Shown here: piece after piece, positions 559-43,591 of the stretch
Layout: each line of letters starts with the position of its first letter
Position numbering within the stretch: the stretch's first letter is position 1
IMG/VR virus record: IMGVR_UViG_3300033388_003361
Coordinates: 1 to 46,153 of that record
Strand: one strand, 5' to 3'
Origin: a virus
Length of the DNA: 46,153 bases
Position numbers and translations under genes: made by a program
Notes under the pieces: generated by a model
Told to the model about the DNA's origin: nothing
Database searches by the model: none
The model's input: only the letters and a program-made list of their open reading frames with translations

Positions 559-711
559 TTATTCCTTAATTGTATTTGGTTTCTGAAGTTTATTACATAA
601 CTCACATCTTACTTCGCCGTCTACATTAGATTTTAGAGGGAAAAGTAATCTTAGGCAGTTATTACAAATAATAGCTCCAGGCCTAATGGGTGGATTTATT
701 ATTTGATCCAT
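559..711 (-). CDS. Zinc-ribbon mini-protein, 50 aa
   Basis: This 50-aa ORF starts with ATG at 711 behind a GGGGTGAAA ribosome binding site and overlaps the end of the helicase gene by 29 bases. It carries two CxxC pairs (Cys16/Cys19 and Cys36/Cys39, CNNC and CELC), the layout of a small zinc ribbon. It ends three bases before the start of the coiled-coil gene at 555, whose ribosome binding site AAGGAAT overlaps its final codons. Function unknown; it is one of about a dozen tiny Cys-rich proteins in this genome. Confidence 0.75.
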   Translation of the reverse strand: MDQIINPPIRPGAIICNNCLRLLFPLKSNVDGEVRCELCNKLQKPNTIKE

Positions 712-1918
712 TTTCACCCCTTGCCAGCTCTTGAAGAACTGTATTTTTTTGTTTTACTGTTTGAATTCCCGAATGCAGAGCACCGATATTTCCGATCGCT
801 ATGCACTGCTGCTTTGTTCGAGTTACTGCGGTGTAGATCAACGACCGATCCAGTTGAAACTTATCGCGGTTAAGACAGCAGAAAATAACCTTCCGGTACT
901 GGCTGCCCTGCGATTTGTGAACCGTTAACGCATAAGCAAGCTGAAGATTCTTCATCATCTCCTTATCGAAGAGAACTTTATCAATCTGTCTTCTGCCCTG
1001 TGTGATCGGATCATCGAGCTGAACCCAAATCTTATAATCGCTATCAATACTGTGGATTGTTCCGGTAGTCCCGTTCCAAACGTTCTTTTCCGCACAGTTC
1101 TTAGTATTGATTACCCGGTCCCCGATCTTCCATTTCTCACCGTACTCCCTGGGATTAACGAAATTAACTATTGCTTCGTTGAGCCCTTTTACCGTACAAG
1201 CATCATCAACGGTGGTTCCGTTCCTGGGGCAAAGGATTATATCCTGCTCAAAATCAATGAAGTTATCAAGCTTAATCCAATCCATAATGGTCTTTTGGGC
1301 TAACTCAGGATTGCCGACCTTGATAAAATCCCACTTCTCAGACTCCGACTCATCCGAATCTAAAGGATTTTCACCGTTTCGGATTGCCGTTGCCGCCTTA
1401 AAGACTGCTTCGCTGTTACGATAGCATTTTGTTAACTTTGCAACCGCTTCCGGTCTGCAGGCTGCTATATCATGGAAAGGCTGACCAACACCAACGGGAG
1501 AAAGCTGAGCTTGATCACCTACAAAGATAAGCCTGTCAGGGGTTCGCTTTACTATCTCAGCCATCATCGAGCTATCAACCATACTGGATTCATCAACTAT
1601 CACCGTGTATCCAGTAAGGTCTTCAACCGTGAACTCTATTCCGTTCGAGCCGAGCATACGGTGAATTGTCGAAGCTGCCCTTCCTGTTGCTTCTTTCATT
1701 CTCGCGGCTGCTTTTCCGGAAGGGGCGCAAAGGTTGATTTTTACCTCGCTTTTCTTATAACTGGTTACATGATGTTTTTCGCTTTCTTTGTTTTTAAGCC
1801 TTCTTATTATCTCCTTAACAATCGTAGTTTTTCCGGTTCCTGCCCCTCCGGTTATGACTGAGAACGGCTTTGAGATTGCGTGTTCAACTGCTTTTATCTG
1901 CGTTGGGTCAAGTTCCAT
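683..1918 (-). CDS. RecD2/Dda-type SF1 helicase, ATPase part
   Basis: A superfamily 1 helicase core of 411 aa. Walker A GGAGTGKT lies at residues 24-31, the DE box (TVIVDESS) at 109-110, and the C-terminal UvrD-like motif TVHKSQGSQYRKVIF near 335. The order matches RecD2 or Dda helicases, which move 5' to 3' on single-stranded DNA. I start it at the ATG at 1918, not the ATG at 1936, because the upstream bases GGGGAGG form its ribosome binding site. It lacks the OB-fold and helix-hairpin-helix domains that precede the ATPase in RecD2; those appear in the separate gene at 2620-3474. The two presumably work together (inference). Confidence 0.9.
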   Translation of the reverse strand: MELDPTQIKAVEHAISKPFSVITGGAGTGKTTIVKEIIRRLKNKESEKHHVTSYKKSEVKINLCAPSGKAAARMKEATGRAASTIHRMLGSNGIEFTVEDLTGYTVIVDESSMVDSSMMAEIVKRTPDRLIFVGDQAQLSPVGVGQPFHDIAACRPEAVAKLTKCYRNSEAVFKAATAIRNGENPLDSDESESEKWDFIKVGNPELAQKTIMDWIKLDNFIDFEQDIILCPRNGTTVDDACTVKGLNEAIVNFVNPREYGEKWKIGDRVINTKNCAEKNVWNGTTGTIHSIDSDYKIWVQLDDPITQGRRQIDKVLFDKEMMKNLQLAYALTVHKSQGSQYRKVIFCCLNRDKFQLDRSLIYTAVTRTKQQCIAIGNIGALHSGIQTVKQKNTVLQELARGENGSNNKSTH

Positions 1919-2124
1919 TATCGACCTCCCCACCATACAAGAGCTTCATCAAATGAAGCCAGTTCTTTTTTACCATGAGCAGGGCAATCATTACAGTTAT
2001 GATATTTTGTGAATCGGCATTGAATACACCATTTGCATACAGTAAACCTTAATTTCTCATGCTCCTCTTCATCTCGAAGTCTAACAAATTCTTCAACAGG
2101 CTCGTAAGCTTTATACACCTTCAT
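1918..2124 (-). CDS. Cys-rich putative zinc-binding protein, 68 aa
   Basis: The stop codon overlaps the helicase start as TAATG, and the gene overlaps the end of the coiled-coil membrane gene by 14 bases, so it is translationally coupled on both sides. The start at 2124 has a GGTGG ribosome binding site. Cysteines fall in CKWCIQC and then CNDCPAH, a likely single zinc site around residues 30-50. Together with the membrane gene it separates the two halves of the RecD2-like helicase. No function can be named. Confidence 0.75.
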   Translation of the reverse strand: MKVYKAYEPVEEFVRLRDEEEHEKLRFTVCKWCIQCRFTKYHNCNDCPAHGKKELASFDEALVWWGGR

Positions 2125-2629
2125 AAATAACCACCGCAGTTTGGAAGTAATCATCGTAACTATCAAGAAGCATTCCGCTTTCTGCATAATCTCTATACAT
2201 CTGCTTTGAGGCCGATTCGTAAGATTTGTTATGAAATATTAAATCTTGATTATCTTTATGAAGCCAAAAGAGTTCAAGTATCCTTTTTTCAATCTGAAGT
2301 TGCAACTTCTGAATATCAGATCTATACTTTTTAACGACACTAATATGAGAAGTTGCCATTTCTTTAAAGCAGTTAAGCTCACATTTTAGATTGTTTATTA
2401 TTTCAACATGTTGCCATTGATTCTCAAGTAGTTCTTCACTTTTTGTCACCTCAAAGTCCAACGATCTTCTGAGGTCTGTTATTACAGCTCTTTTGTTTAA
2501 AATATCATCATTCTTACCAACAATTATCTCTCTAAGATCACCTATAGACTTTCTTTGATATCTGACTATTACAAAGCAAACAAGCAAAACTGCAGTTAAA
2601 ACAATACCGTATCCAATTCCTACCCACAT
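2111..2629 (-). CDS. Single-pass membrane protein with long coiled coil
   Basis: A 172-aa protein starting MWVGIGYG. One hydrophobic segment at about residues 3-23 is followed by a basic stop-transfer stretch (RYQRKS) and roughly 110 residues of charged helix. I choose the ATG at 2629 because GGGAG sits eight bases upstream; the TTG at 2644 has no such site. The layout, an N-terminal anchor with a coiled-coil domain, resembles inner-membrane spanins (Rz), but it lies inside the recombination module rather than a lysis cassette, and no outer spanin lipoprotein is visible. Membrane tethering of replication or recombination proteins is an alternative. Confidence 0.75.
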   Translation of the reverse strand: MWVGIGYGIVLTAVLLVCFVIVRYQRKSIGDLREIIVGKNDDILNKRAVITDLRRSLDFEVTKSEELLENQWQHVEIINNLKCELNCFKEMATSHISVVKKYRSDIQKLQLQIEKRILELFWLHKDNQDLIFHNKSYESASKQMYRDYAESGMLLDSYDDYFQTAVVIYEGV

Positions 2630-3474
2630 GTTAAAAACTCCCAAATTAGTGTTTCGTTATCGTGATCGACCTTTCGAGCAATCATTGAAGTATCGGTAAA
2701 TGCTACGAGCTTTTTATCTCCGAACATCTCACCAACGCAATCAATTATTAATTCATCAGGCATACCTCCGGCAACATCCGAAGAGGTCCGAAGCAATTCA
2801 AGCCAGCCAACAACTGTCGAACCGTTACTGGTGATCTTTTTCATGGCGTACTCAATTGCAGCCTTTACCCTTCGAGGATCAGTATCACCAATCCCGAACT
2901 CATGCCGGATCTTCTTATCAACATCGCCGAAACCATATTTTGGAAGCTCCGAAAGCATGTAACAATCATTATTTATAATTCCCTGCGCTTTGTTCTCCCA
3001 AACGCTCCAGGCTGTATTTGCCATATTCATTGTCGCGCCTTTTCCCATAAGGAACGAAATCAGATTTACTTTTTGAACATCATTACTTAAGGATTCTATC
3101 GAGAGCTTAAACGCTTCGTAGACCTTCTGTTTCATCTTCGGTATTGAATCCGGCTTTATATCAGGCCAGTTCGCACCCATTTCTTCCCAAATTTGATCAC
3201 GCATCTTTTCCCCGATCCCGATTGTGCGCTCACAGCAATAAAACAAGCGGTGTTTCGGATCAACGGGAACATCGGGGTAAGCTTGAGTAAAAGTGAACTG
3301 AGGTCTTCCTTGATATGAACCGTGATTACCATCAAGGACCAGTTTATCACCCACTTTTACTTCCCAGCCTACAACTCCGGTACAGCTCCCTTTATCAGTA
3401 GAGAGAACATACCAAGAGCCGATCTCTTTTTTGGTTGAATGGATTACCCTTTTGATAATCACTTTAAGTTGCAT
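2620..3474 (-). CDS. RecD2 N-terminal-like protein (OB fold + helix-hairpin-helix)
   Basis: This 284-aa protein resembles the non-ATPase N-terminal half of RecD2 helicases. An OB-like beta region with GVVGWEVKVGD comes first, then IGIGEKMRDQIWEEMG (helix-hairpin-helix), a helical block with NLISFLMGKGA, then YGFGDVDKKIRHEFGI and the characteristic DPRRVKAAIEYAM followed by a conserved Gly. No Walker motif is present. The ATPase portion is encoded 0.7 kb downstream at 683-1918. The start at 3474 has AAGGA eight bases upstream; the longer reading from 3540 overlaps a membrane-peptide gene in another frame and is not supported. Confidence 0.8.
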   Translation of the reverse strand: MQLKVIIKRVIHSTKKEIGSWYVLSTDKGSCTGVVGWEVKVGDKLVLDGNHGSYQGRPQFTFTQAYPDVPVDPKHRLFYCCERTIGIGEKMRDQIWEEMGANWPDIKPDSIPKMKQKVYEAFKLSIESLSNDVQKVNLISFLMGKGATMNMANTAWSVWENKAQGIINNDCYMLSELPKYGFGDVDKKIRHEFGIGDTDPRRVKAAIEYAMKKITSNGSTVVGWLELLRTSSDVAGGMPDELIIDCVGEMFGDKKLVAFTDTSMIARKVDHDNETLIWEFLTCG

Positions 3475-3475
3475 T

Positions 3476-3610
3476 TTATTTATCCTTGACCATAATTGAT
3501 TGTTGTTTTTCGTTATCACAATTTTTTGAGTTTTGTTCAATTACGCTATCAATTAAGCAGTATCCAACTATTATCAAAATAATAATTACTATCGAAGTGT
3601 TATCACTCAT
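3476..3610 (-). CDS. Membrane micropeptide, 44 aa
   Basis: The ATG at 3610 overlaps the ERCC4 gene stop as ATGA and has a GAGGA ribosome binding site. The peptide begins MSDNTSIV, contains one strongly hydrophobic Ile/Leu/Val segment (about residues 6-19), and has a polar Lys/Gln/Asn-rich tail. It ends two bases before the next gene start. Its own stop region provides the AAGGA site of the RecD2-N gene. No family recognised. Confidence 0.65.
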   Translation of the reverse strand: MSDNTSIVIIILIIVGYCLIDSVIEQNSKNCDNEKQQSIMVKDK

Positions 3611-4068
3611 CTTATTTCCTCGTATCGTTCTTTAAAAATTACGAAAGCCAAACCTGCTGCCAAGCTCGGACTTCCTGCGAATATGACGCTCACATTCATA
3701 AGCGTTAATACTGCTATCTGCTTTTGGATGAACTGCGGAGTGATTCTATAGTGGTTGTGTTGTGGGGGAATTACTTCTTCCTGTCGAGTGTTGTAGCAGC
3801 AACCCTCATAATTCCCTTCCACTATAATTACCTTAGCTACCCAATCCTCATCGTTCATTCGTTGGAGTTCGCGCTTAAACCTTTCCCAGCCTGAGCTAAT
3901 TGTACCGATGAAATCATCCATGGATTTACGCTCGATTCCGAAATAATCATCACCTTCAATCTTATAGTCGGCTGTTTTGATGGTGTCAATTTTTACATCA
4001 ACATTGTATTGTGAAAAACTCCACAACAACTGCTCCCTGGTATCGATCACTATTGTGAAATCTGACAT
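3607..4068 (-). CDS. ERCC4/XPF-family nuclease
   Basis: A 153-aa single-domain ERCC4-type nuclease. The motif VIDTREQ (Asp9, Glu12) is followed by ADYKIEGDDYFGIERKSMDD, matching the GDxxx...ERKxxxD active site of XPF/Mus81-like structure-specific endonucleases, with ERK at residues 46-48 and DFIGTI just after. No helix-hairpin-helix domain is attached, so DNA binding probably needs a partner. Phage ERCC4 proteins are thought to process branched or flapped DNA. It sits between the ssDNA-binding candidate and the RecD2-N gene, within the recombination block. Confidence 0.88.
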   Translation of the reverse strand: MSDFTIVIDTREQLLWSFSQYNVDVKIDTIKTADYKIEGDDYFGIERKSMDDFIGTISSGWERFKRELQRMNDEDWVAKVIIVEGNYEGCCYNTRQEEVIPPQHNHYRITPQFIQKQIAVLTLMNVSVIFAGSPSLAAGLAFVIFKERYEEIR

Positions 4069-4117: not shown

Positions 4118-4762
4118 CTATTGCGGAGCTTGTGGCATTTTAGGCATAGCAGGCATTTGTGGTGCAACTTGTGGTGCCGGAGCCATTTGAGGCATTGGTG
4201 GAGCTTGTTGAACTTGCGGCGCTGGTGCTACTTGCTGAACCTGTGGCTGCGGTGCCATCTGCGGAGCAGCTTGAGGAATTGGCGCAGCAATCGGAGCTTG
4301 TGGAGCTGGAGCTGCAAAATGAACCGGTGCGCTGGCTTTTTGCATTCGAGCCATTCGAGCTGCAATATCATCAACAACAATCGCAACCGGAGCATCAGTC
4401 GAATTCCCAAGATATTTCACATCGTAGTACATTGAACCGTTGTACTCTCGCTCTGTAACTCCTACCACCGTTTTACCACCGATCATTTCGGGAAGCTTTG
4501 CGAAGTCAAATCCATGCTTCCAACCAGCTTTTTGAAGTGAGTCAAGAGTAGCCTCGTATTGAGGTTTCCCAGAAAACTTACCGGCAGTGATCATTTTTGA
4601 TGAAATCTCACCGCGCCAAGCATCTTCGCAACCAGTTATTTCGTCACGAACCATAAGGGCGATATCAAACTTATCAGGATCATTCTCTGTGTTGTATTTT
4701 GGCGAAGTGATAATTGCGTTCGTAATTGTTACCGAAAAGTTACCTTTTGCATTAAATCCCAT
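4118..4762 (-). CDS. Putative ssDNA-binding protein with P/A/Q-rich tail
   Basis: A 214-aa protein with a beta-rich N-terminal domain (about residues 1-140) and a low-complexity Pro/Ala/Gln/Met tail (about 150-214). The layout, a compact domain, then a disordered tail, in a recombination operon, is that of phage single-stranded DNA-binding proteins, but the tail does not end in the acidic DDxxF tip of bacterial SSB. The start at 4762 has AAGGAT nine bases upstream. Assignment rests on context and architecture, not on a firm motif match; a different recombination accessory protein is possible. Confidence 0.55.
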   Translation of the reverse strand: MGFNAKGNFSVTITNAIITSPKYNTENDPDKFDIALMVRDEITGCEDAWRGEISSKMITAGKFSGKPQYEATLDSLQKAGWKHGFDFAKLPEMIGGKTVVGVTEREYNGSMYYDVKYLGNSTDAPVAIVVDDIAARMARMQKASAPVHFAAPAPQAPIAAPIPQAAPQMAPQPQVQQVAPAPQVQQAPPMPQMAPAPQVAPQMPAMPKMPQAPQ

Positions 4763-4836: not shown

Positions 4837-5355
4837 CTAGCTATTGTTGTATGATTGAACGATATTAAGAGGTAGAACACCATCCTCAAGAAGTAGCAGT
4901 GTAAGCTCTGCAGCCCTATTGTATCCTATCTTCAGCTTTCTCTGAAGGAATGAAGTGGTTAGCTTCTCTTCTTTAAGGACAATCTCTTTTGCCTGCTCAA
5001 AAAGATCACCTTTAACAATCCCTCCATCAGCAAGGATATTCTCTTCCTCATCATCGAACAAGTCAGGATCTTGATATTTAATCTCAATCCGATCAAGCTT
5101 ATCCTTATGAGAACCCTTAATGTCGTACTGGCAAGACATATCAAGCGTTATCTCGTTGTCCTGGTAAAGAGTCATGTTGGCCATAAAATTGACCTTCATC
5201 GTACCATCATGCAGAGTTTTGAGCTTATTTCTCATATCTCTCAAGATTGATCTACGATTAGAGGAAACAATATTTTTTGCAGCCTCCAGCAGTTTGTCAT
5301 AAAACATCTCTTCAAGCTCAACATCGCTCAGCTTCATTTTTGGTTCGTCAGTCAT
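4837..5355 (-). CDS. FtsK-gamma-like winged-helix protein
   Basis: A 172-aa protein whose C-terminal part (residues about 118-161) closely follows the FtsK gamma domain: LFEQAKEIVLKEEKLT, then SFLQRKLKIGYNRAAEL, then a short acidic helix ending EDGVL. In FtsK/SpoIIIE this winged helix reads the polar KOPS/SRS sequences and activates XerD. Here there is no ATPase; the N-terminal 110 residues are unfamiliar, partly beta, with an acidic DLFDDEEEN linker. The gene overlaps the zinc-finger gene upstream by 8 bases. Binding to host or phage polar sequences is inference. Confidence 0.8.
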   Translation of the reverse strand: MTDEPKMKLSDVELEEMFYDKLLEAAKNIVSSNRRSILRDMRNKLKTLHDGTMKVNFMANMTLYQDNEITLDMSCQYDIKGSHKDKLDRIEIKYQDPDLFDDEEENILADGGIVKGDLFEQAKEIVLKEEKLTTSFLQRKLKIGYNRAAELTLLLLEDGVLPLNIVQSYNNS

Positions 5356-6235: not shown

Positions 6236-7006
6236 TTAGTTGTTTCTTAATTTCATGATGTAAGCTTGGTGACCGTGGTTTATAGCAGGGTCGCTAGTAG
6301 TTCCACTCAAAACAGTATCGAGATATTCAACAGGGAATTGATCCCAAGTAAACGTATCAGCAGGATAAAAACCACCTTCACCGTTCGGAGTTTCAATCGG
6401 GCATCGGCTGTAATCAATCTCAACAGCGTCAACAACAATCGCTTCAACCTTTTTGGCAGCCTCAACGGGATCCATAGCGACTGGAACAGCCTGGCTAATC
6501 GGAGCATCGTTGAAATCAGATACCTCTTCCGGTGTGTAGAGTCCGTATTTTATTTCGGGAGCCAGCACATTCAAAGCATTCGACATCATTCGAGCCCAAA
6601 GCATGTTTTCCGGATAGTTATTCCAGTTTACATTACTACCACCTGCAAGACAGGCTTTTTTTGCCATCTCCATGGTGAATTCCCATTCGGTATCAACACC
6701 CTCAAAATGGAAGATAGCAGCAGCCCTTGTAGCAGTTCGTTCAACAATTGAATACTTACCTCCAATAGCTCTAAAGTCCTTTGCCATCGCTGCGGTCTTC
6801 TTTGCTGGCTTACCTTTTACAATGTCGTATGTTCTACCAAACTCAATTGGCGAAATACGTTCAAGGTGACAGGTCATAGCAACAACCATTCCGGCACTGG
6901 GATTCTCTATCCCAAGCATTCCCGATTTTGCCAACTCAATTCCCATGTTTTGCAAATCAAGCATACTCGCTATTGGCAAAGCAACACTTTTTACAATTTC
7001 ATTCAT
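6236..7006 (-). CDS. RecT-like single-strand annealing protein
   Basis: A 256-aa protein with features of the RecT family: MVVAMTCHLERISPIEF near the N terminus, KGKPAKKTAAMAKDFRA, then WARMMSNALNVLAPE followed by GLYTPEEV. RecT proteins anneal complementary single strands and normally work with a 5'-3' exonuclease. The C-terminal 80 residues are unlike RecT and acidic. The start at 7006 has TTAGGAG in front. Neighbours (exonuclease, ssDNA-binding candidate, ERCC4 nuclease) support a recombination role. I am less sure of the subfamily than of the general class. Confidence 0.75.
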   Translation of the reverse strand: MNEIVKSVALPIASMLDLQNMGIELAKSGMLGIENPSAGMVVAMTCHLERISPIEFGRTYDIVKGKPAKKTAAMAKDFRAIGGKYSIVERTATRAAAIFHFEGVDTEWEFTMEMAKKACLAGGSNVNWNNYPENMLWARMMSNALNVLAPEIKYGLYTPEEVSDFNDAPISQAVPVAMDPVEAAKKVEAIVVDAVEIDYSRCPIETPNGEGGFYPADTFTWDQFPVEYLDTVLSGTTSDPAINHGHQAYIMKLRNN

Positions 7007-38091: not shown

Positions 38092-40527
38092 CTAAATTGA
38101 GTCTTTTAACGCCACTTTTCCGGCTTTTCCAACACCTACCACAATAAGAGAATCACCCTTCTTATATCTTCCCCAGGTAACACCGCGCCGCCTTTCTTTA
38201 ACGCCATGCTGATTGTGATTTGGGTCAACTTCATGAAGCGATCCGTTCTTCGCCATGTTACGAATATCTTGAACCATCCTAGAAGGATATCGATTCTCTG
38301 GGAATGCTTTTCGGCACCATTCAGTGATCGCCCCATGCTGTATAAACACCTTTTTATCATGCGGTATTCCTAACTCTTGAAGACCGTATTTGATCATATC
38401 GGCAATGGATCTCGACTCTTCTTCGTCAATGTTTGATTCAGCTTTAACATCAGCTAGCACCTTGATCGCATCGCTGTAAGCTTCAGATGATCCACACATC
38501 GGAGCAAGAACACGTTCCTCAAACTCAGGAAAACGAGTGCACGACTGGGATTGCATTTTAAAAGCTTCCCCAGAAGTACCATGATTCAGTATATCGGTGA
38601 TATCAGCAATAATATTCATTCGGTTATTCCTGATGTAGTCCATCACTCGGCTCTTCCAAAGTGTAGATTTTACCGACTTCTTAAGGATAACGTAGTAAGA
38701 ACGTATAGCTATATCGTTGTCAACAGTCGCGGAATTGGCTGTTATTACATAGTTTAGGTTATTCGGCCTACACTCTTCACCACGACCATAAGGAGCTTTA
38801 CCCGATATATGGGAAGATGTGATCATGTCGGCAAGCTGAGGACATTTGAACTCACCCACGACATTATCAATCAGCACCATACGGGATAAACGCCCCTCAC
38901 TGGAAACAAGCCGGCGAACAAGCTCATCGGGATTCTGTCTCAACTGATTCGGGTTAGTTCTTACCAATCCACCGCGCTGCGAATCGGGAGCCTGGTACAA
39001 TGTTGAGATAACTTCTACAAGGGTTGTTTTTCCCACTCCAGCCCCATGTTCACTATCAATGATCCACGATGGCTTAGGTATTCCAGGGATGTAATAAAGC
39101 GGAGCAGCAATGAACGCCTTAAGGAATGACTTTTGCGCCTCATCGGCCGGATTAAAGAATTCAACGAACTCCTTGAAGTAATGATGATCACTACTGGGTT
39201 CGGGCAGTTTTTCGTGAGCATAATAAACATCTCTACGGGGCGGCCAGTCTGGAACGTATGAAATTGACTCATATCGCTCAGCACTGGAAAGGATTCCCTC
39301 GAAGAACTCTTGCTTAGGAACAAAACCTTCACCAGCAGCCCACCATATGCGGCGTTTTGACTTCATTCCCATCCATGAGAATAGAGAAGAACTGTTAAAA
39401 ATAGGATTAATCAATCCCGTTTCCCGGTCGTGGTCGAACAATTGCTCACCAACTTTCTTAGGGAAGTCAAGAAATCTACGCTTAGAGTCTTTAATAACTT
39501 CCTCTATCTGGCGCGGTTCTTTCTCAACTGTAACTTTCTTTTTTTCGTTTGTTGTCTTTTTGGGGATATAATTTAAAAAATCAACTTCATTCGCAAGTTT
39601 TGCATCGTTTATAATAGGATTAAAATCATCATCCTGAAGCAAGGTCTGATCTAGTTGTTCTAATGATTCGAGAAGTTGATGTAGGTCGCTGGCTGTGTGC
39701 CTTTCGACTTTTATGTATTCTGTGACATCTCCTTTCGGAGCTTGGCTCGTGGATGTCATAAAGATTGCTGTGGCAGCATCTTTTATTTTTAAAGCTACTA
39801 AGCGGGCATGGACCAGGCCAATCGGCTCAGTTTGTCCTTTTAGGATTTTGATATCGTTGTCGTACAAGATGAAAACCTTTTTACCTTCGAAGTATTGAGC
39901 GAAGGTGTCAGGCCATTTTTTAGAGCCTCCGGAATTGGTTGTTGCCGGATACCCTATCTCTTTGAGAGTCTCAACGTCCTTCTCGCCCTCCACGATACAA
40001 ACCCACTCACTATCGGCGAATCCTTTGAGATTATATGGTATTCGCTCAACACCTTTCATGCTCCATTTGTTTTCGCTTTCCCTCTGAAGGAACTCTTTAT
40101 CCTTTTCGGGATGTTCAAGCCTTAACACCTCATACCTGGTTACACCTTCTAAATCAACGTAAGGGTAAATTGCTGTACACTTGAACCCTTCACTGATTAG
40201 CTTTTCATATCTCGTACCGGGGTGAAAGTCGGTCCTTTTCTTCATTTTAGGATCGAGCTTGTAATATTCTCCAAGCTCTTTTTGTGCAGAAAGCAGATCA
40301 ACTTGCCGGAACCGAACAACCAAATCAAGGATAGAGCCTTTATCATTTGTGACAAAATCAACCCATCCGGTTTCGTTTATACTTAACGCTCCCGAATCGG
40401 AAGCCGGACGCCATGGGATATTAAATTGATCTCTTTCCCCCTTTACTGGAGTCATATTCAGAACTGTAATTGCGTAATCTAAGCAGCTACCAGCTTCTTT
40501 TATTTCATCATAGTCGTAGAATTCCAT
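38092..40527 (-). CDS. Primase-helicase with degenerate zinc domain
   Basis: An 811-aa replication protein. The first about 90 residues have the layout of a CHC2 primase zinc domain (DYAITVLNMTPVKGERDQFN, then IPWRP, later GSILDLV) but the zinc Cys/His are missing. TOPRIM motifs follow: VCIVEGEKDVETL (Glu180, Asp184) and ILYDNDI (223-225). The helicase Walker A is EHGAGVGKTT near residue 510, with LIDNV and an Asn-rich sensor TANSAT after it, an SF3/AAA-like end. Start at ATG 40527 behind AAGGA. Confidence 0.9.
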   Translation of the reverse strand: MEFYDYDEIKEAGSCLDYAITVLNMTPVKGERDQFNIPWRPASDSGALSINETGWVDFVTNDKGSILDLVVRFRQVDLLSAQKELGEYYKLDPKMKKRTDFHPGTRYEKLISEGFKCTAIYPYVDLEGVTRYEVLRLEHPEKDKEFLQRESENKWSMKGVERIPYNLKGFADSEWVCIVEGEKDVETLKEIGYPATTNSGGSKKWPDTFAQYFEGKKVFILYDNDIKILKGQTEPIGLVHARLVALKIKDAATAIFMTSTSQAPKGDVTEYIKVERHTASDLHQLLESLEQLDQTLLQDDDFNPIINDAKLANEVDFLNYIPKKTTNEKKKVTVEKEPRQIEEVIKDSKRRFLDFPKKVGEQLFDHDRETGLINPIFNSSSLFSWMGMKSKRRIWWAAGEGFVPKQEFFEGILSSAERYESISYVPDWPPRRDVYYAHEKLPEPSSDHHYFKEFVEFFNPADEAQKSFLKAFIAAPLYYIPGIPKPSWIIDSEHGAGVGKTTLVEVISTLYQAPDSQRGGLVRTNPNQLRQNPDELVRRLVSSEGRLSRMVLIDNVVGEFKCPQLADMITSSHISGKAPYGRGEECRPNNLNYVITANSATVDNDIAIRSYYVILKKSVKSTLWKSRVMDYIRNNRMNIIADITDILNHGTSGEAFKMQSQSCTRFPEFEERVLAPMCGSSEAYSDAIKVLADVKAESNIDEEESRSIADMIKYGLQELGIPHDKKVFIQHGAITEWCRKAFPENRYPSRMVQDIRNMAKNGSLHEVDPNHNQHGVKERRRGVTWGRYKKGDSLIVVGVGKAGKVALKDSI

Positions 40528-40634
40528 GCGTTCGTCCTTTTTGTTTGAGTTGATTGTTGGCATTTAGGGCAATATCTATTTTTTGCAGGCACTCCGCAGC
40601 ATAGACAATTTTTTCCTATTTGGTGATGGGTCAT
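40500..40634 (-). CDS. Zinc-ribbon mini-protein overlapping primase, 44 aa
   Basis: ATG at 40634; the peptide begins MTHHQIGKNCLCCGVPAKNR and contains CLCC (10-13) and CPKC (22-25), a complete zinc ribbon. It overlaps the primase start by 28 bases in another frame. As the primase lacks its own zinc ligands, this protein could supply a zinc domain in trans (inference). No strong ribosome binding site is visible upstream. Confidence 0.6.
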   Translation of the reverse strand: MTHHQIGKNCLCCGVPAKNRYCPKCQQSTQTKRTNAWNSTTMMK

Positions 40635-40928: not shown

Positions 40929-40952
40929 ACCTCAATCGTTGGTTATTCGGGC
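40929..40952 (-). repeat. Junction repeat type 2, copy e
   Basis: Carries the radical SAM stop codon in CCGAATAA, then CCAACGATTGAGGTG, which supplies the ribosome binding site of the next gene. See copies a-d. Confidence 0.7.
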
Positions 40953-41821
40953 TGGTTATTAAAAACCCAGTCGTTAGTTACTGAGCCGTCGGAGTAGATT
41001 ACCTTAAAGGTGTCTTCGGTTTCTATGTCAATCTTTTTCTGTCCTTCCGTATCCACAAAGCAGCAACTAAATGATTCTGCGTTAGCTCCTTTAGCGTATG
41101 GACAAAGGCGTTTAACTGAGACGTTAATTCCTGCTTGCCTGTAGCGAAAAGTACACCCTTTTATAATTAGGTCTTTTACTTCTCTGTTATTTACATGGTG
41201 AAATTCTCCAAAGAAGTATTTGGCTTCGACAAATTGATCTGAGTTAACCTTTTTAAGTTCTGTCAATCTTAGATTCTGAGCTCCTAAATTTTTTGTGAGA
41301 AGCACCATACGAGGAACTGCTTCTGCTTTTTCCCAGTCATCGTATTCGTTATTGAATGTTGAATTTATAGATACATCAAATTCTTTGTATGTAAGGGCAT
41401 CTTTGATAATAGCAAAGGCTACTATGCCGCCTAATACTTCCGCGTTCTTAGCTTCGTCGTAGTGGTGTACTGAAATTTGGAGTTCGTCAATCAGTCCATT
41501 AAGCTCCTTAACCCGCTCTCGTGTCAGTAGAGATCCGTTAGTATTTAATACTATTCTTATCTTACTCTTTCTTAGAAGTACGCAGAGTTTAATTACATTA
41601 TTGAACTCTAAGAATGGCTCACCACCAGTGATAATTACCGTCTTGTACTCTTTTAGTTTATTGGCCTCTTCTGCTATTTTGAAGACATCTGCAACGTTGC
41701 AATCCTTTCCATCTCTATCAACACAGAAATCGCAACTCATATTGCAGGCACTTGTGATCTTAATTGAGATCATTTTCTCAGCATGTTTGCTACATAGGTT
41801 GTTTCTATGGGGCGTTATCAT
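40943..41821 (-). CDS. Radical SAM enzyme
   Basis: A 292-aa radical S-adenosylmethionine protein. The [4Fe-4S] motif CNMSCDFC (Cys26, Cys30, Cys33) and GGEP (66-69) are intact; LNTNGS and ISVHHYDE follow as in MoaA-like enzymes. Further cysteines, GCTFRYRQ, LCPYAKG and FSCCFVD, near residues 215-255 could bind a second cluster, again MoaA-like. No QueE partners (QueC, QueD, FolE) and no viperin signature beyond the shared core are seen, so the product is unknown. GGAG eight bases before the ATG. It lies downstream of the cytosine methyltransferase; a link to DNA or nucleotide modification is only a possibility. Confidence 0.9.
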   Translation of the reverse strand: MITPHRNNLCSKHAEKMISIKITSACNMSCDFCVDRDGKDCNVADVFKIAEEANKLKEYKTVIITGGEPFLEFNNVIKLCVLLRKSKIRIVLNTNGSLLTRERVKELNGLIDELQISVHHYDEAKNAEVLGGIVAFAIIKDALTYKEFDVSINSTFNNEYDDWEKAEAVPRMVLLTKNLGAQNLRLTELKKVNSDQFVEAKYFFGEFHHVNNREVKDLIIKGCTFRYRQAGINVSVKRLCPYAKGANAESFSCCFVDTEGQKKIDIETEDTFKVIYSDGSVTNDWVFNNQPE

Positions 41822-42586: not shown

Positions 42587-42610
42587 GACCTCATCGTTCG
42601 TTTACCGGAT
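42587..42610 (-). repeat. Junction repeat type 2, copy b
   Basis: ATCCGGTAAACGAACGA, then TGAGGTC: stop codon of the methyltransferase plus ribosome binding site of the zinc-ribbon gene. Differs from copy a at three positions. Confidence 0.7.
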
Positions 42611-43591
42611 TAATTGTTTCTTAATTCTTTCCCCGATCCATCTCATTACAGGAACAGCCATTGAATTTCCAAGAGCTTTGTAACGTGGACCATCAGAACA
42701 AAGCTGTTCTGAATGCTTTGGTTTTCCATAAGGAATATTTGTATGTCCATCGGGAAAACCTTGTAGCCGTTCATACTCCCTCACTGTTAAGCGGCGCACT
42801 TCCTTTTCGCTTACTAATACCTGCGGGTCTTTGTAGTCCCTTGCTCCTAAAGTTTCACTGGCTCCTCTGCGTTCTCTAGCTCTACATCCGGGCATAAACG
42901 TAACCGTGTCGCATTGCTCAGTCGGTCGCTCCGGCGGGCATGTCCTCTGCGGGCCTTCGAGCTCAAATAATACCTTTCGGGGATCAAACCCCTTTCGAGC
43001 ACTTGCGACAACGAACACGCGACGCCTTCGTTGGGGTACTCCAAAAAATTGAGCATCGAGGACTCGCCAGGCGACTTTCCTCTGTGGTCCAAACACACAA
43101 CCTGCGTTTGTCCATCTTCCCCCTGAAGGCTCCAATGGATTTTTTTCACCGGCAAGCGCTCCAAGAAAGCATCCAAAAGCGTTGTCTTTGGTGTTGAGAC
43201 AACCTGGGACGTTTTCCCACAAGCAGACTGCAGGTTCATCCCCGCGAACATGTCTAACTGAATCAATTGCATCTAATAACCTCACATAGCTAAGTGTTAA
43301 TTGTCCTCGTTTATCTTCAAGAGATTTGCGTAAACCTCCGACACTAAACGCTTGGCAGGGAGTGCCACCAATTAAAATGCTTGGTGCTTCAACTTCATTT
43401 GCTAAAACCTTCCCTCTTATCTCAGTCATATCACCAAGATTCTTTGTTTCCGGCCAATGGTGGGCCAATACTGCAGTAGGGAATTTCTCTATTTCGGCAA
43501 ACCATGCAGCTTTCCAACCATGTGGCTCTAATGCAATCGAGGCAGCCTCTACGCCAGAGCACACCGAACCGAAATCAACGATACTATCCAT
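42602..43591 (-). CDS. C5-cytosine DNA methyltransferase
   Basis: A 329-aa Dcm-type enzyme that transfers a methyl group from SAM to C5 of cytosine. Motif I is VDFGSVCSGVEAA, motif IV GGTPCQAFSVGG with catalytic Cys79, motif VI ENV (126-128), motif VIII VPQRRRRVFVV, motif IX/X RYKALGNSMAVPV near the end. The target-recognition region between VIII and IX is short. No cognate restriction enzyme lies nearby, so it probably protects phage DNA from host restriction or mimics host methylation. The ribosome binding site GGGA sits eight bases upstream. Confidence 0.95.
   Translation of the reverse strand: MDSIVDFGSVCSGVEAASIALEPHGWKAAWFAEIEKFPTAVLAHHWPETKNLGDMTEIRGKVLANEVEAPSILIGGTPCQAFSVGGLRKSLEDKRGQLTLSYVRLLDAIDSVRHVRGDEPAVCLWENVPGCLNTKDNAFGCFLGALAGEKNPLEPSGGRWTNAGCVFGPQRKVAWRVLDAQFFGVPQRRRRVFVVASARKGFDPRKVLFELEGPQRTCPPERPTEQCDTVTFMPGCRARERRGASETLGARDYKDPQVLVSEKEVRRLTVREYERLQGFPDGHTNIPYGKPKHSEQLCSDGPRYKALGNSMAVPVMRWIGERIKKQLIR

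Follow-up and report, generated by a model that had tools for sequence, protein, structure and literature searches.

Two separated genes encode the parts of a RecD2 helicase

The stretch of DNA analysed here (the window) is the entire 46,153-base virus record IMGVR_UViG_3300033388_003361. Because the terminal 114 bases at its start and finish are identical, i.e. the record carries a 114-bp terminal repeat, it is probably a complete genome; because of its matches to portal, major head, internal virion and terminase proteins, we assign it by sequence to the tailed phages, i.e. the viruses of bacteria. Four overlapping genes on the minus strand, running from 3474 to 683, encode in this order a protein with a RecD2 N-terminal domain (2620..3474, 284 aa; hereafter the N protein), a membrane coiled-coil protein (2111..2629, 172 aa), a Cys-rich protein (1918..2124, 68 aa) and a RecD2 SF1B motor protein (683..1918, 411 aa). 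The gene overlaps resemble translational coupling. A first-pass annotation of the sequence had proposed that the outermost of these genes are the two halves of a RecD2-type helicase that is reassembled as a complex, perhaps one linked to the membrane.

The N gene matches the Pfam family HHH_RecD2 (PF14490; 5.2e-14, 52.4 bits, above the cut-off of 27) and positions 28-241 of the NCBIfam family RecD2 (TIGR01448; 2.9e-13, 48.9 bits), and in searches against profile families it matched no helicase ATPase family. Moreover, a profile of N domains finds the RecD2 structure 3e1s at 2.1e-28. The protein is laid out as an OB fold (residues 1-69), a helix-hairpin-helix (HHH) segment (~71-132), the RecD2-HHH domain (~133-200) and a winged helix (~200-284). 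AF2 predicted one intact fold (pLDDT 95.8) with a five-stranded barrel at residues 2-67, the HHH helices and a complete winged helix followed by a helix that ends at residue 283. Residues 133-284 of this model superpose on residues 154-315 of D. radiodurans RecD2 (3gp8) with a Z of 16.1, and residues 1-69 superpose on the OB folds of PriB, RPA and SSB with a Z of 8-9, which is middling and weak when taken alone. The gene had earlier been described as having OB-like and HHH segments and no Walker motif; it holds the roughly 280-aa N-terminal domain that is specific to RecD2 (HHH_RecD2, OB fold), with the OB segment predicted to be a true barrel. As modelled, gene 2620-3474 encodes the whole of the RecD2 N-terminal domain and ends at the linker between the domains.

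The motor gene, which had been read as the ATPase only, matches positions 315-707 of TIGR01448 (8.4e-93, 311.8 bits) far more strongly than it matches RecD1 (5.8e-53, 180.4 bits), and it also matches 3e1s (6.8e-34). The protein starts six residues ahead of the Q motif; the helicase motifs GGAGTGKT, VDESS, GDQAQL, VHKSQGSQ and YTAVTR are intact and the motif columns conserved, and the SH3 subdomain (PF18335) scores 38.3 bits, where the cut-off is 41. Gene 683-1918 encodes the whole RecD2 SF1B motor, with a predicted 5'-3' polarity.

The two TIGR01448 matches are complementary, and together they cover RecD2 save about 70 positions at the winged-helix end and the linker; the linker is the sole part of RecD2 that is missing. 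Beyond these two genes, no further RecD2 match was found in the 46-kb record. TIGR01448 has a curated cut-off of 500 bits for a single protein, which is not reached here because the 311.8 and 48.9 bits fall in two proteins, and the halves do not form one chain but are separated by two other genes. Compared with the RecD2 of D. radiodurans (3e1s/3gp8) and B. subtilis and with TIGR01448, the window has the same OB/HHH/winged-helix N domain and the same SF1B motor, and the folds and motifs correspond; by contrast, it has two polypeptides from separated genes and the linker is absent. In total, we conclude that the window carries RecD2 in a split form.

A conserved cut with varying genes in the gap

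The best start of the membrane coiled-coil gene is the ATG at 2629, which gives a 10-nt overlap with the N gene, and its product has one N-terminal membrane helix followed by a coiled coil. The Cys-rich gene has its best start at the ATG at 2124 and a stop that overlaps the motor start (TAATG); its product has the pattern CxxCxxC...CxxC and possibly binds metal. As the first-pass annotation had it, both lie between the halves as coupled genes, and their codon use is coding-like (0.187 for the membrane gene and 0.136 for the Cys-rich gene), resembling that of other phage genes and unlike that of shifted frames. Homologues of either protein were found neither in 252 related loci nor in IMG/VR nor in 50,697 phage records.

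The overlap of all four genes and the coding character of the two small ones would fit a membrane-linked four-protein helicase complex that includes the membrane coiled-coil and Cys-rich proteins. However, both small proteins are orphans, and the same split occurs elsewhere with the gap empty or filled by unrelated genes, making such a complex very unlikely; with no homologues anywhere searched, the two proteins were rejected as complex members. The halves are adjacent or overlapping in five split relatives, with the N stop and motor start overlapping or nearly so in L096, L099, L105 and L106 and a few bases apart in L102. Unrelated genes lie between the halves in L109 (an 81-aa gene), L095 (a 55-aa gene), L100 (323-aa and 266-aa genes) and L020 (a string of small genes), and no gene between the halves in split relatives has a blastp relation to the two middle genes of the window. 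We conclude that the halves are separated at a conserved place whatever fills the gap, and that the two middle genes are most likely lineage-specific cargo. From the initial proposal, a reassembled helicase has been retained as the best reading, together with a recurrent split at a domain border, whereas a membrane link, or any part played by the two orphan proteins, is not supported. The 55-aa gene of L095 (6369-6536) matches only the C-terminal glycyl-radical tail (CGYF) of the anaerobic ribonucleotide reductase NrdD (PF13597, 3.3e-11), here as a free-standing protein.

Split and fused forms share one gene module

Single window proteins used as IMG/VR queries did not find close relatives; with alignment queries, 20 clade relatives were gathered from IMG/VR and two metagenome-assembled genomes. 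As in the window, RecD2 is split in nine of these (L095, L096, L099, L100, L102, L105, L106, L109 and L020), and it is a single open frame in ten (L097, L098, L101, L103, L104, L107, L108, L111, L175 and L176), some of which are closely akin, e.g. L103 and L175. The RecD2 region of L110 is ended by the contig end and was counted as neither split nor fused; L020 has a frameshift in the motor gene near Walker A and was used mainly for its gene layout. The window and the nine split relatives are cut at the same linker, and in 10/10 split clade members the two genes share a strand, with the N gene upstream.

The clade shares a module of ERCC4 nuclease, RecD2 and primase genes. An ERCC4 nuclease gene lies upstream in 19/20 clade loci (the 20th meets a contig end), a primase gene lies downstream in 18/20, and a RecT, exonuclease or SSB-like gene is also present in most. 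In the window, all on the minus strand, the upstream neighbour is an ERCC4-type nuclease (3607..4068; PF02732, 5.1e-13), followed by a probable SSB-like protein (4118..4762) that has a weak match to phrog_378 and blastp matches in both split and fused relatives (L095, L096, L099, L100 and L101) and, in the same module, a RecT-like annealing protein (6236..7006; phrog_561, 1.7e-12) with matches in many relatives. A primase-like protein with matches to DNA primase PHROGs is encoded at 38092..40563 (-) and is 27-42% identical to its counterparts, encoded downstream of the RecD2 motor, in those 18 loci. The same phage also encodes a 172-aa protein (4837-5355, minus strand) in which an FtsK gamma DNA-binding domain (8.6e-15) stands free of the FtsK motor, as well as a radical SAM protein whose matches are QueE-like, and a DNA methyltransferase (40943-41821 and 42602-43591, both on the minus strand).

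The fused sister phages (L097, L098, L101, L103 and L175; L104, L176, L107, L108 and L111) belong to the same clade, have the same gene module and have motors 44-52% identical to that of the window; they differ from it in encoding RecD2 as one open frame of 714-791 aa rather than as two genes. For the natural fusion L097, a confident structure was predicted (pTM 0.88). Because this model fits 3gp8 with a Z of 41.9 over 524 residues drawn from both parts, the shared arrangement of the domains persists in the phage clade.

A complete RecD2 in close relatives had been named beforehand as a sign of a sequencing or assembly artefact. Such genes exist (L097, L101, L103, L104 and others), yet they do not mean that the split is an artefact because nine other relatives are split too. 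Bacillus phage PJN02 (L014:1740-5179) provides a precedent for an interruption: its RecD2 N domain is likewise apart from the motor and annotated as two genes, but the break is near Walker A and is made by mobile intron protein and endonuclease genes, rather than lying at the linker as in the window. An intron in the window was rejected since an Rfam search found none; moreover, two coding genes lie between the halves and the same split recurs in nine other contigs. An artefact, or an interruption by an intron or intein, is for these reasons the least probable explanation. A decaying RecD2 that was interrupted by an insertion and kept by chance would account for the foreign two-gene block between the halves, but both halves come with a start, a stop and a ribosome-site-like sequence of their own, the domains and motifs are intact, and divergent relatives have the same split; we regard decay as hardly more credible than an artefact.

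Splits at the same linker with the N gene upstream were also found in other phages (L031/L033/L038/L086/L093/L112; L064/L121; L080). Because the L031 group, L064/L121 and L080 are placed elsewhere in the RecD2 tree than the window clade, at least three further phage groups are split at the same place with separate origins. By contrast, of 80 cellular loci checked, practically all encode RecD2 as one chain and none is convincingly split; a single frame over both parts was missing in only 3/80, by contig end or frameshift. The apparent cellular splits in L189, L197 and L247 were rejected as contig ends or frameshifts, and L235 and L253 are broken within the motor.

Phylogeny of the split and fused forms

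The clade has 100/100 support in a tree of the motors, where the deepest branches within it are split. The motor-only tree is undecided between one and several split or fusion events (AU p 0.26 and 0.31). Placing all split forms in one group was rejected with motor and N domain (AU p 0.005) and also when three neighbour genes were added (p 0.0105), and was borderline on the neighbour genes alone (p 0.057); similarly, a single fused group was borderline and not rejected (p 0.072). The split form L095 is sister to the fused forms L097/L101/L103 with full support, and fused forms are nested inside split ones. The two fused groups have dissimilar linkers, which fits separate joinings. The favoured history, which takes the fewest steps, is one fission followed by two re-fusions; repeated fission is a less favoured alternative.

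The N protein probably acts in trans on the motor

At the core of the N domain, 19-24/39 general RecD2 positions are kept in split clade members and 21-25/39 in fused ones, so that separation has not relaxed the conservation of this domain. R202, F182 and D186 are present in all ten split clade members. By its spacing from the Walker lysine, which is 160 residues in Bacillales relatives, F182 is at the expected place of B. anthracis RecD2 F208; cells with the F208A variant are about as sensitive to mitomycin C as those with a catalytic mutant (PMC12143592). The role of the conserved R202 and E274 may be confined to the inner fold of the N domain. In one-chain RecD2, the N-terminal domain is the part proposed to hold ssDNA or the unwound arm of a fork. 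This domain of roughly 280 aa 'remains uncharacterized', and it has been proposed to hold the second arm of a fork and to drive the strand switching that limits RecD2 (PMC12143592).

The halves match complementary parts of RecD2 and the N gene is always upstream of the motor gene, supporting that RecD2 functions here as two subunits; by contrast, soil-phage relatives (L126-L174) have kept a RecD-type motor of ~420 aa with no detectable N domain upstream, which counts against this reading. On balance we consider it likely that the window encodes a two-subunit RecD2 in which the N protein binds DNA, associates with the motor and acts on it in trans. With the covalent linker lost, the N protein would most likely dock on the motor at the site used in one-chain RecD2, as we infer from the unrelaxed conservation of the N domain, the place of F182 at F208 and the L097 fusion model. 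The 284-aa protein would then supply fork binding and strand-switch control to the 411-aa protein, the putative 5'-3' SF1B motor, in the setting of phage replication and recombination.

Alternatively, the N protein could be an independent fork- or ssDNA-binding protein that works with SSB, RecT or the ERCC4 nuclease and does not dock, leaving the motor to act alone. Its OB, HHH and winged-helix folds, its SSB-like, RecT and nuclease neighbours and the phage motors that lack an N domain are all compatible with this. However, every split relative has the N gene ahead of the motor gene, ten further relatives have the two fused, and the N domain is equally conserved in split and fused forms, so that we judge independent action to be rather improbable.

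The recurrent cut at one linker and the likely re-fusions suggest that contact between the domains suffices without a covalent link. Moreover, the separate phage N domain is a natural reagent: activity of the motor can be measured by itself and then with the domain restored, and neither protein has to be truncated artificially. A bolder reading, to which we give some weight but which we do not favour, is that the RecD2 of phages is a helicase that has been split and re-joined repeatedly and whose N subunit is a separate regulator that joins and leaves the motor; strand switching would then be set by the supply of the subunit instead of being built into one chain.

Searches of open-licence papers turned up no description of a split RecD2, which is not proof that there is none. 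The 402-aa protein H2E9J7 of Megavirus courdo7 (BFVD), a RecD2-type HHH protein of a giant virus, has a fold resembling that of the N protein and may be another stand-alone N domain. Finally, two phage contigs each carry two complete RecD2 genes side by side (L082:2814-7218 and L084:1850-6502).
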